Part shown: positions 4,082 through 28,532 of the stretch, one piece after another | Position numbering within the stretch: the stretch's first letter is position 1 | Layout of the letters: the number at the start of each line of letters is the position of its first letter | Source of the DNA: Nitrospinota bacterium | GTDB taxonomy: Bacteria; Nitrospinota; Nitrospinia; JACRGO01 | NCBI GenBank assembly: GCA_016212295.1 | Contig: JACRGO010000172.1 | Span: 1 to 31,573, forward strand | Direction: 5' to 3' | DNA: 31,573 bases | Position numbers and translations under genes: made by a program | The notes under the pieces: generated by a model | Database searches by the model: none | What the model saw: the letters and a program-made list of their open reading frames with translations, nothing else | What the model was told of the DNA's origin: nothing

Positions 4082-4097
4082 TTTTTTGAAAGTATTT

Positions 4098-4174
4098 TTA
4101 ACCACGGATTTCACCGATTACACAGATTTTATAAAAAATAATTTAATCTGTGCAATCTGCGTAATCTGTGGTTA
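4098..4174. repeat. Palindromic dispersed repeat (30-bp imperfect arms)
   Basis: The left arm (4099-4128, starting taaccacggatt) pairs with the right arm (4145-4174, ending aatctgtggtta) around a 16-nt AT-rich loop. This wording is a common dispersed palindrome in environmental bacterial genomes. The rest of the 405-bp gap between the cyclase and larB holds a small gcggc-gaa-gccgc hairpin (4188-4200) and an AT-rich tract of reiterated caaattt/tcaaat words (about 4288-4325), with no gene. Confidence 0.7.
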
Positions 4175-4407
4175 AAAAGTTTTGGTTGCGGCGAAGCCGC
4201 GACATGGAGACATTGAATTATAAGTTTTGCGGTGATTAATTTCAACAAAGACCTGGCCTGGACAAGCGGGAATCAAGAAGATCAGGAAGCAAATTTCAAA
4301 TTTCAAATAAACTCAAAATTCCAATAAGGAACGTGTAAGAATCTTTATTGATTTGAATATCCTTTTTTGTTAGCATGAATCATCATTTCACCGCATAGCC
4401 TGAATTC

Positions 4408-5221: not shown

Positions 5222-5258
5222 AAATTAGTGGAAATTCGTGTTCATTCGTGGCTAATTT
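5222..5258. repeat. Short inverted dispersed repeat overlapping a stop codon
   Basis: Arms aaattag (5222-5228) and ctaattt (5252-5258) flank a ttcgtgttcattcgtgg-like core. The core wording recurs at about 13029-13047. The right arm supplies the TAG stop of the minus-strand YdjY-like gene (5252-5254). Confidence 0.5.
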
Positions 5259-8777: not shown

Positions 8778-8947
8778 AGTGACTAAAGTGTAAAGTGAAC
8801 TAAAGCGCCTAAAGTTGTGGTAGGTTTCTTTTTTATAGTATAAAAATAACTTCCACAACTTTAGTCACTTGAAACTTTAGCTCACTTTAGGCACTTTCAC
8901 TGCTATTCCGTTGATTTTCAAAGAAAAACTTTGAAATTCCGATACAG
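8778..8947. mobile_element. MITE-like repeat, family 2, copy 1
   Basis: A self-complementary block built from actaaagt/gagctaaagt modules and their complements (8778-8897) is followed by a 50-nt non-palindromic tail (8898-8947, ending attccgatacag). The same architecture and nearly the same tail recur at 28370-28510, with about three tail mismatches. There is no coding capacity. It lies 11 nt upstream of the lgt start codon, so it probably forms the 5' leader or promoter region of lgt. Confidence 0.7.
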
Positions 8948-8958
8948 AAAGGAATACC

Positions 8959-12910: not shown

Positions 12911-13066
12911 ATAAAAGTGTTTCCAGATTCATTGGCCGCGCCATGCCATGTATTTGACTTTGAAGCAGGGATGCCTTATTTTTTATATGCAGGTCCTGAA
13001 AGGCCCCATCCTGAGCCTGGTTTAAAAAAATTCGCGTTCATTCGTTGCTGATTTGTTCCGATCCCC

Positions 13067-20593: not shown

Positions 20594-20738
20594 ACTTACT
20601 CGCCTATTCCGGGAATTTATCTCTTTTTGCCATAAAACGTTTTACTTTTTGCAGCCTTTTTGAAATTTCAAATATTTTTGGCTCATTGCCGAAATGAAAT
20701 TTGCGAGATAAATTCTCAGAATTGGCGAGTAAGTATCT
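20591..20738. mobile_element. MITE-like element, copy 2
   Basis: Nearly the same sequence and order as the 251-403 element, including the interior gaaatttcaaatatttttgg and the right terminal repeat ending gagtaagtatct. The left terminus is eroded (its first few bases are missing or changed where it meets the toxin remnant), and one base in the right arm has changed (aattggcg for aataggcg). By eye identity is above 90 percent. It sits between a toxin remnant and a toxin-antitoxin operon. Confidence 0.75.
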
Positions 20739-20841
20739 ATAATCATATAGTCATAAATTTTGCGGATTTGCATTCTCGGACAGCCTGTCAAGACGTGACC
20801 CAAATTTTAGGAACGCGTTCCCCTGCAATTTGTAAATTTTC

Positions 20842-21426: not shown

Positions 21427-22044
21427 CATATCTCATATATCTCTAAGAGGAGAAGAAATTACCCCCCCCCCATCCCCCTCTCGTTCCCAAGCCCTGTCTG
21501 CCGTAGCACAGGCAGGTCCAGCTTGGGCAAGCAAAAAATTGTAACAGTTATTTTTTACCAGGCCCTTATTAAGGATGTAGCGCAGGCGTCTCGCCTGCAT
21601 TGTTCTGAATAAATTTTTCAAAAATCTAAATTGATACGATTTTTTTTTGTTTTCCAGCCACTGATGCATCCCGGAGGGATGCCGGCCATTAGCCAGGGGT
21701 TGAGGCTGCAAGCCGACACCCCTGGTATCCGAAAAATTAATTAATCCGACCCCGGAGGGGTCGCGGTCTGGCGCCCCTCCAGGGTGCAATCGTTATCGCA
21801 TTGTTTTCCGGTGGTGTCGCCCGTTGACACGGGCTTAACCACCGGCTAATAGCTTCGAACCCTCCTGGTTCGGCAAATACGCGTCCCATACTTTGGGCTT
21901 TAACATGGTTTCCACTGTAATTGCGCTTGAAGCCGCTTCCCATGAAATCTCGTGAACGGTTCCACGCGTTACAGTTTTGCAACCTGTAGCGCATAAAACC
22001 CTCCTAACCTGGAACTGACAACTGGAAACCGGCAACCGCATTTC
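21427..22044. repeat. Cluster of palindromic dispersed repeats, no supported gene
   Basis: Contains gcaggcgtctcgcctgc-type hairpin wording near 21582-21599; a gatgcatcccggagggatg block (about 21662-21682) with a related ccccggaggggtcg (about 21750-21764); and a ccggtggtgtcgc block with complementary accaccgg (about 21808-21844), followed by gaaccctcctggttcg. A minus-strand reading frame starting at 21994 has a good aggaggg Shine-Dalgarno but runs straight into the repeats (product MRYRLQNCNAWNRS...). It resembles no family I know, so I do not call it. Confidence 0.55.
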
Positions 22045-23124
22045 TCATTGTATACCTCTAACGCAACGGGCATAGAGGTAGTTAAATTTACGTTCGGAAT
22101 TGACGCGACCATAGTAAAAATCGACGGCCCATGCGAGCTGGTAGCCTCCTCTCTCAATGGTGGACGACCAATAGGAAGACGATTTTGCATTTGGAAAATA
22201 TGTTATGTCTATTGTTGGTCTCTTGCTTGTGTCAATTAAAGTTGTCAGTTCATCAATTGTCGGCAATCGCCAGCCGGAATAACCAGCCAGGGACAGGGCG
22301 CCACACACGTTGATAGAATTGGGATTTAATCCTGCGTCATACGTGCCAGAAGTCTCATACCAATTGTACGTTTCTAAATTTGGAAATTCTCCCTTCTGCC
22401 ACATGAGTTTATTCGCGCTGTCAGTCACCGTGCCATCGCGATTGTCTTTGAAGGAAGACGTTGTATATGTCCCGCCGGTTGAGCTTCCTCCAGTTGTTCC
22501 CCCAGTTGTGCCGCCACTGGTTGACCCTCCGCCGGTCGTTCCCCCGCTGGTGGAACCGCTTGAACTCCCTCCGCTGCTGCCACCTGGCGAGCCGCCGGAT
22601 GTATCGGCGCAGCCCTCGCTCGATTTGCATTTCAGGTAAATATTCACCTCACTGGGCTCGCCTTTATATTCCACCTTTTTCAGATTATTTTCATAGCCGG
22701 ACTTTTTGGTGGTTATCATGTATTTGCCGATTTTCAGATCTGAAAAACAATAAAATCCGTCCGACTCTGAATACTCGGTTAAAAGCTTGGCTCTTCCAGT
22801 GAGCAGTCTCGCCTGCATCTTGGCGTCAGCGACCTCTGTTTTTTCCTTATAATCCAGAACAAACCCGGAAAGGGAGCATTCGCCATCCGCAGGCGCGGCA
22901 TGGAGAAAGGCAGTTGACGGTTCCCGGTTTTCAATCATCAATTGTCGATTGTCAATTGTCGATTGGAGACCGGTTGCCTGTGGAGTTTGGGACTTGGCCC
23001 TGTGGCGGCGGTTTTTCCTGTCCGCCGCTTCGGATGAGCCAAGAAAAAAAGAGGCGATAAAATACGCCGCGCATATAGCGCAAATAAAAACAACCGCCTT
23101 TGTGAAAAATTTTTGCCTGAGCAT
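22045..23124 (-). CDS. Exported carboxypeptidase-regulatory-like plus DUF1566 protein
   Basis: 359 residues. The N-terminal signal or anchor is at about 8-33. Residues about 52-69 (TIDNRQLMIENREP) are encoded by a dispersed attgtcgattg repeat. Residues about 82-165 form a carboxypeptidase-D-regulatory-like beta sandwich (SLSGFVLDYKEKTEVADAK ... YCFSDLKIGKYMITTKKSGYE). Residues 170-220 are a Gly/Ser/Thr linker (SGGTTGGGSTSGG). Residues about 223-358 are a DUF1566/Lcl-type C-type-lectin-like domain: DNRDGTVTDSANKLMWQK, GYSGWRLPTIDEL, YWSST, YARCVRG. An adhesive or sensor role at the cell surface is inferred. The Shine-Dalgarno is strong (aaggaggaca) and a TTGACT/TAGAAT promoter precedes it. Confidence 0.85.
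   Translation of the reverse strand: MLRQKFFTKAVVFICAICAAYFIASFFLGSSEAADRKNRRHRAKSQTPQATGLQSTIDNRQLMIENREPSTAFLHAAPADGECSLSGFVLDYKEKTEVADAKMQARLLTGRAKLLTEYSESDGFYCFSDLKIGKYMITTKKSGYENNLKKVEYKGEPSEVNIYLKCKSSEGCADTSGGSPGGSSGGSSSGSTSGGTTGGGSTSGGTTGGTTGGSSTGGTYTTSSFKDNRDGTVTDSANKLMWQKGEFPNLETYNWYETSGTYDAGLNPNSINVCGALSLAGYSGWRLPTIDELTTLIDTSKRPTIDITYFPNAKSSSYWSSTIERGGYQLAWAVDFYYGRVNSERKFNYLYARCVRGIQ
22932..22968. repeat. attgtcgattg-type repeat inside a coding region
   Basis: Alternating caattgtcgattg/tcaattgtc words, partly self-complementary, lie within the DUF1566 gene and are translated. Similar words occur at about 24316-24345 and 30996-31028 outside genes. Confidence 0.65.
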
Positions 23125-23158
23125 AATATGTGTCCTCCTTTTTTAGGAATTGCGGTAA

Positions 23159-23186
23159 ATTCTACCCCTTCCCCAGAAAAAGTCAA
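23159..23186 (-). promoter_or_regulatory. Sigma70-like promoter of the DUF1566 gene
   Basis: On the minus strand TTGACT (23186-23181) and TAGAAT (23164-23159) are separated by 16 nt, about 35 nt upstream of the ATG of the DUF1566 gene. The match is good. Confidence 0.6.
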
Positions 23187-23286
23187 GAAAATTTTTCATA
23201 TTTTTTCAAGAAAGCGCGGTTTTCCTGGAAAAGAATTAAGGTCCTCCGTTGACTTTGGCCGCTGGATACTTTATCTTTTGGTTATA

Positions 23287-23437
23287 TATTATTACGTTCC
23301 GAAATTTGCGTTTTCCGCGCAAGTTTTAAACCGCTTCCTGGAGCGCGACGCGGCCGCAACCAAAATAAATTTCTTTTGAAGCATTCAATGCCGGTTGTAT
23401 TTCAAGCGGAAAACGTAAATTTCGGAACGTAATAATA
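23287..23437. repeat. Long inverted repeat A/A' (32-bp arms)
   Basis: Arm A (23287-23318, starting tattattacgttccg) and arm A' (23406-23437, ending cggaacgtaataata) are reverse complements with one mismatch. The enclosed interval contains arm B of a second inverted repeat, so the two repeats interleave. A-to-A' spans 151 bp. The rest of the gap to the left (23125-23286) holds the promoter of the DUF1566 gene and no other gene. Confidence 0.85.
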
Positions 23438-23492
23438 TCATCAAACGTTTTACTACATCGAAATTTTATTTTGATTGCGGCCGCGTCGCGCT
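23342..23492. repeat. Long inverted repeat B/B' (32/33-bp arms) ending at a start codon
   Basis: Arm B (23342-23373, starting agcgcgacgcggccgc) and arm B' (23460-23492, ending gcggccgcgtcgcgct) are reverse complements with one mismatch and one inserted base. The span is 151 bp, the same as A/A'. Arm B' ends immediately before the ATG at 23493. A:A' and B:B' pairing are mutually hindering because each pair encloses one arm of the other. Confidence 0.85.
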
Positions 23493-24260
23493 ATGAAAAA
23501 AGAAGAAAAAACCAGCGACCCTGAAGAAAATATTCAAAATTCCGGCGCTCAAGAGGTCCGGGAGAACAGCATGGAACAAGAGGCCGCTCATGGAGAAGCC
23601 GGCATGGAGGCCCTTGGCGCCGGGCATGACGCCATGGACGAAGCAAAAACATGCCCTGGCGGCCCTGAAAAACCAAAAAGCGCGTCTTCCAGCCTTTTTC
23701 TAAAACTGGCCCTTGCCCTGGTATTGGCGGGCGGCTTGGGGTTAGGCGGATTCTGGTGTTATGCCAAAATAAGGCTGGGGATGAACGCCTCGGAAACCAT
23801 CGCGCAACTGGATTTAAAAATCGCCGGGATGGAAGCCAGCCAGGCGGAAATAGCCAAGACCCTTCAGGGCATTGAGTCCAGGCTTGGCCAATTAGAAAAA
23901 TCCGACCGGATAATATCTGAAATCCCCGCTAAGTTAAATGGCCTGGAAAAAGTGCTGGCGGACGTCAGGCAAGCGGTCTCCAGGGTTTCTCAGGGAGTTG
24001 CGCGAATGGAGGAAGGAGGACCTATTCCCTCGGTCCAGGAAGGGCAGGCCCCGGCAAACCTGGGGGTGGAGAGCGCCCAGGAACAGGCGGCAATTGTCCA
24101 GGAAACCCCCGCCCCCCAGGAGGAGCCTAAGGTCCAGACAAAGGAGCAAGTCTTTGAAAATTTCCTGAAATCCCTTTTAACAAGCATCGGACGGGGCCTT
24201 AAGTGGTCCGCCGAAAAACTTTTTTTCGTTGTTGATGAAATTCTTAAAAGAGTTTTTTAA
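23493..24260 (+). CDS. Single-pass membrane protein with extracytoplasmic coiled coil
   Basis: 255 residues from the ATG at 23493. The frame is open to a TTG at 23475, but that part lies inside inverted-repeat arm B'. The N-terminal about 70 residues are acidic and disordered (EEKTSDPEEN, EAAHGEAGMEALGAGH). A single membrane helix follows at about 72-96 (SLFLKLALALVLAGGLGLGG). After it comes a heptad coiled coil (about 100-180: IAQLDLKIAGMEASQAEIAKTL, LNGLEKVLADVRQAV), then a Pro/Glu/Gln linker and an amphipathic C-terminus. I recognise no family. No Shine-Dalgarno is present because the upstream DNA is the repeat arm, so translation initiation may depend on RNA folding. It is followed after 111 bp by the NusG-like gene. 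Confidence 0.75.
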   Translation: MKKEEKTSDPEENIQNSGAQEVRENSMEQEAAHGEAGMEALGAGHDAMDEAKTCPGGPEKPKSASSSLFLKLALALVLAGGLGLGGFWCYAKIRLGMNASETIAQLDLKIAGMEASQAEIAKTLQGIESRLGQLEKSDRIISEIPAKLNGLEKVLADVRQAVSRVSQGVARMEEGGPIPSVQEGQAPANLGVESAQEQAAIVQETPAPQEEPKVQTKEQVFENFLKSLLTSIGRGLKWSAEKLFFVVDEILKRVF

Positions 24261-24371
24261 CGGATTTTTATACCCATCCCACAGGTCTCTCCATTTATTA
24301 CGCATCACAAGTTCATGTCAATCGACAATTGGCCGATTCCAAATCATCAATTTTAAAGAAGGTCCGCGCAA

Positions 24372-24878
24372 ATGGATGAAAAATGGTATGCGGTAAAAAC
24401 CAGGAGCCGCCATGAAAAAGTGGCGACGGATATGTTGCGCAGGAAATCCTTCACGGTTTTTTTCCCGGAAATCAGTTCATGGAGCAAGAGGAAGGACAGG
24501 AAAAAACTCATCATGAGGCCGCTTTTTCCAGGCTATATCTTCATTCATTTTGAATTGGATAACGACCGCTGGCTGGACATAAGGAAAACACGCGGGGTCG
24601 TGGATTTAGTCAAGTTCAGGGATGAGCCGGAACCGGTCCCGGATGAACAAATTCTCTCCGTCAAGACCGTTGTTGAGTCCGGGGTCATTTTTACCAACAG
24701 GCCCTACTTGAATCTAAAAAAAGGGGACAAGGTCGTGGTGGCAAAAGGTCCCCTTCAAGGGGCTCTGGGAATATACTTAAGTTCCGATGAAAAAAAAGGA
24801 AAACTCGTGGTGTCGGTTGATCTCCTTAACAGGTCGTTGGAGGTGGAAATAGAGCAAACGGACGTGGAGAGATTTTAA
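24372..24878 (+). CDS. NusG/RfaH-family specialised transcription antiterminator
   Basis: 168 residues. The NGN domain (about 4-105) begins EKWYAVKTRSRHEKVATDML and contains RPLFPGYIFIHFELD and the TRGVVDLVKF segment. A KOW domain (about 112-168) begins LKKGDKVVVAKGPLQGALGIYL. Length and the KWYAVKT start fit the RfaH/UpxY/LoaP group rather than the housekeeping NusG, which sits with rpl genes. Such paralogues accompany RNA polymerase through long exopolysaccharide or secondary-metabolite operons. An aagaagg Shine-Dalgarno is present. Only 15 nt separate it from the following SDR gene, so it probably heads an operon running to 28374. Confidence 0.9.
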   Translation: MDEKWYAVKTRSRHEKVATDMLRRKSFTVFFPEISSWSKRKDRKKLIMRPLFPGYIFIHFELDNDRWLDIRKTRGVVDLVKFRDEPEPVPDEQILSVKTVVESGVIFTNRPYLNLKKGDKVVVAKGPLQGALGIYLSSDEKKGKLVVSVDLLNRSLEVEIEQTDVERF

Positions 24879-24893
24879 TTTTAGAGCCAAAAA

Positions 24894-25889
24894 ATGATTT
24901 TCGTTACCGGCGGGACAGGGTTCCTGGGAAAAGTGGTGGTCAAGAAGCTAATTCAGCGCGGTGAAAAGGTTAAGCTTTTGATCAGGAAAAGCAGTCCTTT
25001 GGATGGATTGGAAGGAGAGCCGCACATAAGTTTCTTTAACGGGGACCTTTGCGACAAGGACGACATACACCGGGGATTGGAGGATTGCACCCGCGTTATC
25101 CACGCCGCGGCCCTTGTAAAAACCTGGGACATCCAAAGGTCTAACTTTGATAAGGTCAATATAAATGGATTGAAAGCGGTGGCGGAAGCCGGCATGGAAA
25201 AGGGCATTGACAAGTTCTGTTATGTCTCGTCCTTTATCGCCCTTGGACCCACGGACGGAATCACCGCCAATGAGGACACGCCTTATCCTGAGCACGGATG
25301 GCATAATGACTACGAACGCACGAAACACCTTGCCGACCTGGAAATAAAGGGGTACATGAAGGGCGGGCTTCCGGCGGTTGTTCTCTATCCAGGAGTGGTT
25401 TACGGGCCTGGAAGGATCACCAGCGGCAATATGATAGTCCGCCTGATCTCTGATTTTAATAAAGGGAAAATCCCTGGGATACTGGGGGACGGCGCCAAAA
25501 GATGGAGTTACGCCTATGTTGACGATGTGGCGGAGGGCGTGGTTTGCGCGCTGGACAAGGGAAAAACCGGGGAGAGCTATATCCTGGGCGGGGAAAATAT
25601 TTCCATGGAGGAATTTTTCGAGGTCCTGGCAAGATTGCTTGGCAGAAAGAAACCTTCCTTTCATGTCCCTTACTGGCTGGGCAAGATCGCCGGTTTCGGG
25701 GAGGAATTGGCCGCCATGTTGACCGGCAGGGAACCGCTTAACACCAGAGGGACCATTGAAATATTCAAACACGAATGGGCGTATAGTTCCGAAAAGGCCA
25801 GGAAGGAATTTGATTACCACCACCGCTCCCTGGCCAAGGGCTTGGCCCTTACCGTGAACTGGATGCGGGAAAATGATCTCCTTCAATAG
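24894..25889 (+). CDS. Extended SDR NAD(P)-dependent epimerase/dehydratase
   Basis: 331 residues. The N-terminal Rossmann motif TGGTGFLG is at 5-12. The catalytic Tyr140-x3-Lys144 (DYERTKHLAD) with preceding Ser112/Ser113 (VSSFIALG) shows an intact active site. The segment VVLYPGVVYGPGRITSGNMIVRLI and the late YAYVDDVAEGVV are typical of extended SDRs of the dihydroflavonol-reductase/HpnA-like group, acting on nucleotide sugars, sterol-like or hopanoid-linked substrates. The exact substrate cannot be told. It lies 15 nt after the RfaH-like gene, consistent with an envelope glycan or lipid operon. Confidence 0.9.
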   Translation: MIFVTGGTGFLGKVVVKKLIQRGEKVKLLIRKSSPLDGLEGEPHISFFNGDLCDKDDIHRGLEDCTRVIHAAALVKTWDIQRSNFDKVNINGLKAVAEAGMEKGIDKFCYVSSFIALGPTDGITANEDTPYPEHGWHNDYERTKHLADLEIKGYMKGGLPAVVLYPGVVYGPGRITSGNMIVRLISDFNKGKIPGILGDGAKRWSYAYVDDVAEGVVCALDKGKTGESYILGGENISMEEFFEVLARLLGRKKPSFHVPYWLGKIAGFGEELAAMLTGREPLNTRGTIEIFKHEWAYSSEKARKEFDYHHRSLAKGLALTVNWMRENDLLQ

Positions 25890-25965
25890 TAATTTACTGA
25901 TTATAGCCAACGCTTTTTAAAAAGTGCCATAATTTTTCAGGCAAAGAAGGCGGAAGTAAACGCAA

Positions 25966-26083
25966 AAAATAACAAATAACAAGCAGCAAATTACAAATAA
26001 GCTCCAATAACAAAATTTCCAAAACTTTCGCAATTGGGGCTTGGAGTTTATTTGGATTTTGTGACATGAAATTTGGGATTTCA
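25966..26083. repeat. Self-complementary aacaaataac/aaatttgg dispersed repeat
   Basis: The left part (caaataac, ttacaaataagctccaa, aaaatttccaaa) is complemented by the right part (ttggagtttatttgg, attttgtgacatgaaatttgg). The annotated start codon of the next gene (26066) lies inside the right arm. Confidence 0.6.
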
Positions 26084-27312: not shown

Positions 27313-28374
27313 ATGAAGCCTGCTGAAATCTCTTTTTTAATGGCTCACCGCGGAGGCGCAAAGGGCGCTGAGAAAAAAAACGCAATTGCGGCATTCTATT
27401 TCCTTGCCTTGGCCTGCTTTCTTCCGGCCCTGGCCGGGTGCGCCGCGTCCCCTGCGACAAAACCTGTCCAGCCCCTTTCCGCGCATGGCCCCGTAAAGGA
27501 ACAAACCGGAGGCGCCATTTCCAGCATACTCACCGAGGAGACAGGCGGGTCCACCGTCATGAAAATCACCGCCACGGGACCTTTCAAATATATCTCCTAT
27601 ATGCTGGATAAACACCGCCGCCTGGTTTTGGAGATAGAAGGCGCCGGCAATTCCGTTTCCTCAAAACTTATTCCAGGCAACGGGGGCCTGATAGACCATA
27701 TCGCCATTGATGGTTCCACTAAGCCAGGCGAGGTCAAGGTGGAAGGCATTTTGAAGCGTCCTTGCGGGTATGACGTAAAGATGGACGGGACTGTCCTGTC
27801 GGTTGTCTTTACGCCAAAGCCAGACGCCTCGTCCGCTCCCAAGCCGAAGCCGATGGAGAAAAAAGAACAGGGTGAAAACGAGGTCGACCGCTTGAAGGCG
27901 GAGGTAGCGTTTTTGAAGAGCAGGAATTCCGATCTGGAGGACAAATTACGGCAGTGGAAGGAAAAAAGCGCAGCGGCCACGGCTGTTGCTTCGCCTCCTC
28001 CGGCGCCAGGAAACGTCGCCGGGATACTGGAATCCATTGAATCATGGAGACTGGCTTGGCAGGAAAAGGACGTGGAGAGATACGGAAATTTTTACGATGA
28101 ATCATTCATCCAGGACGGACAAGATAAAAAGGCGTGGCTGCTCTCAAAAAAGGAAAAATTCGCAAGGGCTGAAGGAATTTCAATTAAGACCGAAAATATT
28201 CAGGTGGATATCAACGGAAACCAGGCATCGGTAAAATTCATTCAGGACTACCAATCAGGCCGTCATAATGACCGCGGAATAAAAACCCTCACCATGGCGC
28301 AAACCAGCGAAGGGTGGAAGATATTATTCGAAAAATGGGAGGCGTTGAAAGTTTCTGTTTCAAGTTTCAAGTGA
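27313..28374 (+). CDS. AMIN-domain lipoprotein with coiled coil and C-terminal NTF2-like domain
   Basis: 353 residues from 27313; an in-frame ATG at 27340 is also possible. The first about 20 residues (MAHRGGAKGAEKK) are encoded by a ccgcggaggcgcaaag-type repeat. A lipoprotein signal with lipobox LAGC follows (Cys at about 43), so the protein is probably lipidated by Lgt and sorted to the envelope. An AMIN domain is at about 74-172 (VMKITATGPFKYISYMLDKHRRLVLEI...GEVKVEGILKRP), a module that binds peptidoglycan or the secretin periphery. A coiled coil is at about 190-225, and an NTF2/SnoaL-like C-terminal domain at about 240-350 (WRLAWQEKDVERYGNFYDESF, GWKILFEKWEALK). The stop codon TGA (28372-28374) lies in a repeat. 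It is the last gene of the putative operon. Confidence 0.85.
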   Translation: MKPAEISFLMAHRGGAKGAEKKNAIAAFYFLALACFLPALAGCAASPATKPVQPLSAHGPVKEQTGGAISSILTEETGGSTVMKITATGPFKYISYMLDKHRRLVLEIEGAGNSVSSKLIPGNGGLIDHIAIDGSTKPGEVKVEGILKRPCGYDVKMDGTVLSVVFTPKPDASSAPKPKPMEKKEQGENEVDRLKAEVAFLKSRNSDLEDKLRQWKEKSAAATAVASPPPAPGNVAGILESIESWRLAWQEKDVERYGNFYDESFIQDGQDKKAWLLSKKEKFARAEGISIKTENIQVDINGNQASVKFIQDYQSGRHNDRGIKTLTMAQTSEGWKILFEKWEALKVSVSSFK

Positions 28375-28510
28375 CTAAAGTTTAAAGTGAGCTAAAGTTG
28401 CGGTAGAAAGGCAATTTTTTATTTTTGACTTTAGGCACTTTAGCTCACTTTAGTCACTCGCACTGCTATCGCGTTGATTTTTAAAGAAAAACTTTGAAAT
28501 TCCGATACAG
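28370..28510. mobile_element. MITE-like repeat, family 2, copy 2
   Basis: actaaagt/gagctaaagt modules with an inverted complement (28370-28456), then the 50-nt tail (28461-28510) almost identical to 8898-8947. The first bases provide the stop codon of the AMIN gene. Confidence 0.7.
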
Positions 28511-28532
28511 TAAATTATAGCCAAAGTATTTT

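Follow-up and report, generated by a model that had tools for sequence, protein, structure and literature searches.

The interleaved inverted repeats at positions 23286-23495 of the window (the whole 31,573-nt stretch of Nitrospinota DNA that was analysed) are probably one copy of a dispersed, non-coding and non-autonomous MITE-like element, which has two unlike ends, A and B', and whose interior most commonly holds the element itself in reverse. A full copy would be built as left end, segment x, a reversed left-to-right unit, segment z and right end. Since a reversed copy placed inside an element with unlike ends necessarily gives the arm order A-B-A'-B', the pseudoknot-like order would be a by-product of this build and not a designed switch. 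The inner copy presumably arrived by insertion of the element into itself, and the compound would then have spread as a unit. This reading draws on the full copies, the unlike and conserved ends, the contiguous reversed unit, the copies with exchanged interiors, the forms found in a sister genome and the layout of two further families. The build is an unusual one of a known kind of element, and the repeats are not evidence of a gene switch.

The arm order reported in the first-pass annotation was confirmed by an inverted-repeat search, and the whole site was found to form one unit of about 207 bp. Arms A and A' are 33 nt long and 97% complementary, and arms B and B' are 31 nt long, ungapped and 94% complementary; the spans are 153 bp for A..A' and 151 bp for B..B'. 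The parts of the site, which belongs to a family called F1 here, are as follows.

23286-23495, + strand: F1 element in its compound form, with left end, interior holding the reversed inner copy, and right end closing in ATG
23286-23318, + strand: A, outer left end
23319-23341, + strand: x, left part of the outer interior (copy alignment, segment comparison)
23342-23438, - strand: inner reversed copy (B-y-A'), running left to right on the - strand, about 96 bp
23342-23372, - strand: B, inner right end, pairing with B' (repeat search, covariation)
23406-23438, - strand: A', inner left end, pairing with A (repeat search, covariation)
23439-23461, + strand: z, right part of the outer interior (copy alignment)
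23462-23495, + strand: B' and terminal ATG, outer right end
23493-24260, + strand: downstream ORF of 255 aa, a predicted membrane protein, outside the element and starting at its terminal ATG

With arms of at least 17 nt, nine interleaved inverted-repeat pairs were found in 400 kb of this genome, none in 400 kb of base-shuffled sequence, and none in an equal amount (400 kb) of sequence taken from three same-class genomes. An interleaved match in the only other genome of the genus available, G001 (L156), is a low-complexity GGAG repeat and was discounted.

The site had been taken for a single locus, yet the entire 207-bp unit is a dispersed repeat in this genome. A 231-bp query returned about 30 nearly full-length matches, 80-91% identical, among the 40 of 303 candidates that were scored, and 26 full copies, each about 205-208 bp long, were aligned, so that the genome holds at least 26 full-length copies. 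The first 25 nt of the A end gave 161 genome matches (88 + 73) and none in the control; with up to two matches per full copy, this puts the F1 loci at the order of a hundred, as an estimate and not a count. The copies are non-coding, intergenic and scattered over unrelated sites, as MITEs are. A second family, F2, has the identical arm order with different arms, and a third, F3, shows the interleaved layout again in other contigs of the genome. Members of both lie in the window.

199-403, + strand: F2 element, arms 199-225/320-346 and 250-284/369-403, reversed inner copy 250-346
20594-20745, + strand: partial F2 copy, B-y-A'-z-B' part only
25902-25972, + strand: F3 fragment, left part

Although the arms differ, the families are alike in length (F1 about 207 bp, F2 205 bp, F3 193-217 bp). 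A weak TTTTTCA motif is common to their x segments (z 2.0-3.3), and a common origin of the three families is possible on this basis but not established. The 152-bp MITE noted earlier in the window is probably part of the F2 element at 199-403 or else the partial copy near 20594-20745. Many contigs of this genome's assembly (C27, C51, C82, C149, C166, C177, C181, C184, C187 and C236 of G000) have their first bases within an F2 copy. The assembly is thus probably interrupted by F2, which would be more numerous than the count suggests. At L057 (G000:C127:1492-1793) about 136 bp interrupts an F2 copy, and the two F2 pieces overlap by 9 bp, which may be the target duplication of another element.

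The ends of F1 are retained where the interior changes. Both of them, ATATTATTACGTTCAGAAATTTGCG on the left and ...CGCGCTATG on the right (in short form ATATTATTACG... and ...GCGCTATG), are kept through internal deletion in L116 (96 bp), L095 (67 bp) and L141 (46 bp), and enclose unrelated palindromes in L090, L092, L098 and L099; altogether, the same-ended copies in this genome that do not carry the inner copy range from 46 to 183 bp. Neither in F1 nor in F2 do the two outer ends form an inverted-repeat pair, and those of F3 have about 12 nt in common (TATAGTMAACGC); because of these unlike ends the label can only be MITE-like. Read on the opposite strand, full F1 copies include an uninterrupted left-to-right unit, which measures 93-96 bp and in most cases exactly 96 bp. 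In one F1 subfamily the inner right end is CATAGCGC, which is identical to GCGCTATG once reverse-complemented.

Some observations count against an element that carries its own reversed copy. The resemblance between outer and inner interior is weak (z 1.3-2.95 per family). In consensus sequences the inner copies lie between GG and C and the outer ones mostly between T and A, and the inner copy may therefore not have come by the same kind of insertion. Neither an empty site nor, among the PF01797 and PF13358 matches, a mobilising enzyme was found. Finally, there are solo copies, A..A' in L023 and in the F3 locus L195, and B..B'-like in L120. Such copies would be expected if A..A' (153 bp) and B..B' (151 bp) were two ordinary MITEs that moved independently on perfect terminal inverted repeats, had overlapped and had become frozen in that state, and each span does end in inverted repeats. 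We nevertheless think this improbable. Simple nesting gives A-B-B'-A' and cannot reach the observed order; the compound is commoner than the solo forms; many copies retain A and B' and have neither A' nor B; and in the sister genome the A and B' ends of F2 are paired with each other. Of the nested-MITE alternative raised earlier, the origin by transposition fits, but not the nesting of two separate MITEs.

Several other palindromic repeats were seen. Near-perfect 57-bp palindromes, in which A and A' are joined by a loop of 7 nt, are found at L118 (1058-1114), in the region 15970-16032 of L134 and at L108, some of them standing alone. A dispersed palindromic repeat of the ACTTTAGTCACTTTAG type lies at 8778-8950 and 28370-28513 of the window; it also occurs as cargo in the F1-ended L090, and directly adjoins another F1-ended copy, L024. 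Copies of an ATTCGTGTTCATTCGTGG-type repeat lie at 5232-5258 and 13028-13054 of the window, and a related palindrome is the cargo between the F1 ends in L098.

In the sister genome G001 the F2 ends are present, and the A and B' ends occur paired with each other. In L216 they flank only 16 nt, giving a 78-bp element, and in L221, L223, L225, L226, L227 and L230 they stand around several unrelated palindromes in elements of about 133-262 bp, other loci being less certain. No reversed inner copy was found in the G001 F2 loci that were read. These loci are the strongest evidence that it is the pair of unlike ends which defines the element, the reversed copy being one kind of interior among several. 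An inverted repeat at 4095-4178 of the window (TTTTTAACCACGGATTTCACCG...), with arms of 34 nt and a loop of 16 nt, resembles the palindromic interiors of the F2-ended G001 elements. In 59 relatives, G001 included, F1 had no match beyond 29 bp in G002; F3 was missing from G001, and among the relatives just 25-31-bp matches to it were found in G011 and G017. No F1 match was found in the plasmid collection. Pattern scans returned a single match of 21 bp in Aquibacillus, and in viral contigs ten of 18 bp; since the alignment to F1 extended over only 18-31 bp about the pattern, these were judged to be due to chance. Nothing relevant on interleaved or self-nested bacterial MITEs was found in the literature searched.

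The geometry is pseudoknot-like, as the first-pass annotation stated, and both stems show compensatory changes across the 26 copies in the genome. Changes on both sides were seen in 16 of 63 pairs, against 6.2 after shuffling, and in 44 cells against 14; none of 500 shuffles reached the observed values, a result that is no strict probability because the aligned copies are related by descent. When the pairing was slid as a control, it fell to 38-47% paired. The pairing is maintained either by selection or by templated (palindrome) correction between the arms, and the data do not separate the two. The types of mismatch in the stems (G-T versus A-C) showed no clear strand preference. It is conceivable, although we hold it to be unlikely, that the interleaved fold is itself the selected substrate of transposition: the outer left-right pair lies on one strand and the inner pair on the other, so that the element could be mobilised from either, and the three families keep the fold with different arms and ends.

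A regulatory switch ahead of ATG 23493 had also been suggested, in which competing leader hairpins would control the gene at this position and the RfaH-like operon as a cis-acting RNA. The element does fold strongly (z -5.75), both stems covary as described, and the start codon stands directly at the end of B'. The element's ATG is also the predicted in-frame start of 6 of the 13 rightward F1 neighbours (L001, L004, L011, L020, L022 and L026), and likely of a seventh at L016; among these are UvrA-like and sugar-phosphate-isomerase-like proteins, named by eye from their sequences. At some loci the ATG may therefore be used as a start codon, but this by itself is not regulation. An ATG stands behind 41 of 59 right ends, among them reversed inner ends and ends with no gene after them, and so ATG 23493 belongs to the element's terminus or to a target preference, and not to a leader that evolved for the gene. 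The copies lie at unrelated intergenic loci beside genes unrelated in kind, on both strands and with no upstream bias of the sort expected of a cis-acting RNA regulator: by simple ORF calls, 19 left neighbours were on the - strand and 21 on the +, and 20 right neighbours on the + strand and 23 on the -. The single-stem energies average -37.7 kcal/mol for A/A' and -34.3 kcal/mol for B/B', but within a copy they are often far apart, and the mean gap of 9.6 kcal/mol shows no general two-state balance. An Rfam scan of 22000-25000 gave no convincing match, only one chance-like miRNA match far below the gathering score. The suggested switch was therefore unsupported, and we regard it as very unlikely.

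Profile searches of the genome with PF01797 and PF13358 identified two Y1 (HUH) genes and one IS630-type remnant, and among the matches to these two families none was bounded by both element ends. The IS630-type remnant, at C157, was rejected as a source of F2, having no matching ends and just a 30-bp match to the z region. One Y1 gene, at G000:C179 (L123 1465-2453), is RAYT-like with the HUH motif NHYH, and a partial F1 left end (31 nt, 90%) directly follows its stop codon. We therefore considered whether this protein moves a REP/REPIN system, the F1 copies being numerous, intergenic, palindromic and rich in compensatory changes, as REPINs are (PMC3116915). However, the partial end lies on only one side of the gene, no GTAG-type foot was seen, and the C179 protein, by our reading, resembles the long HTH-bearing RAYT subclass 2.1, for which no flanking REPs have been found (PMC6006769). 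A REPIN, moreover, is a replicative unit closed by two like REPs that are inverted copies of each other (PMC3116915), and the outer ends of F1 are unlike. We therefore consider such a system doubtful. T|A is common at both edges of the element copies, no empty site was recovered, and a TA-targeting transposase is a possible mobiliser.

An unlike-ended element carrying its own reversed copy illustrates how, in a simple way, small mobile elements can spread as compounds, and such compounds create interleaved inverted repeats that mimic RNA pseudoknots. Because such copies covary too, caution is needed in structure-based searches for regulatory RNAs. The constant ends and exchangeable palindromic interiors of the sister species provide material for asking which parts the transposase needs.

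Compared with known systems, F1 is, like the bacterial MITEs (reviewed in PMC10969869), short, non-coding, dispersed, intergenic and palindromic and does not encode an internal transposase, but the ends of F1 and F2 are not mutual inverted repeats and what lies between them is the element itself in reverse. REPINs and BIMEs with their RAYTs (PMC3116915, PMC6006769) share the high copy number, intergenic position, hairpins and compensatory changes, and a RAYT-like Y1 gene is present in this genome; they consist of two like REPs side by side and inverted, whereas F1 has one reversed unit inside another. Non-autonomous elements of the IS200/IS605 type have subterminal hairpins and transpose as single-stranded DNA (PMC6006769, and in part general knowledge). 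F1 differs from them in that no autonomous partner bearing its ends was found among the PF01797 and PF13358 matches, but like them it has unlike ends with a hairpin near each, AAATTTGCG/CGCAAATTT and GCGGC-CAT-GCCGC as read from the sequence, and by this analogy F1 looks most like a product of single-strand IS200/IS605 (HUH Y1) transposition.
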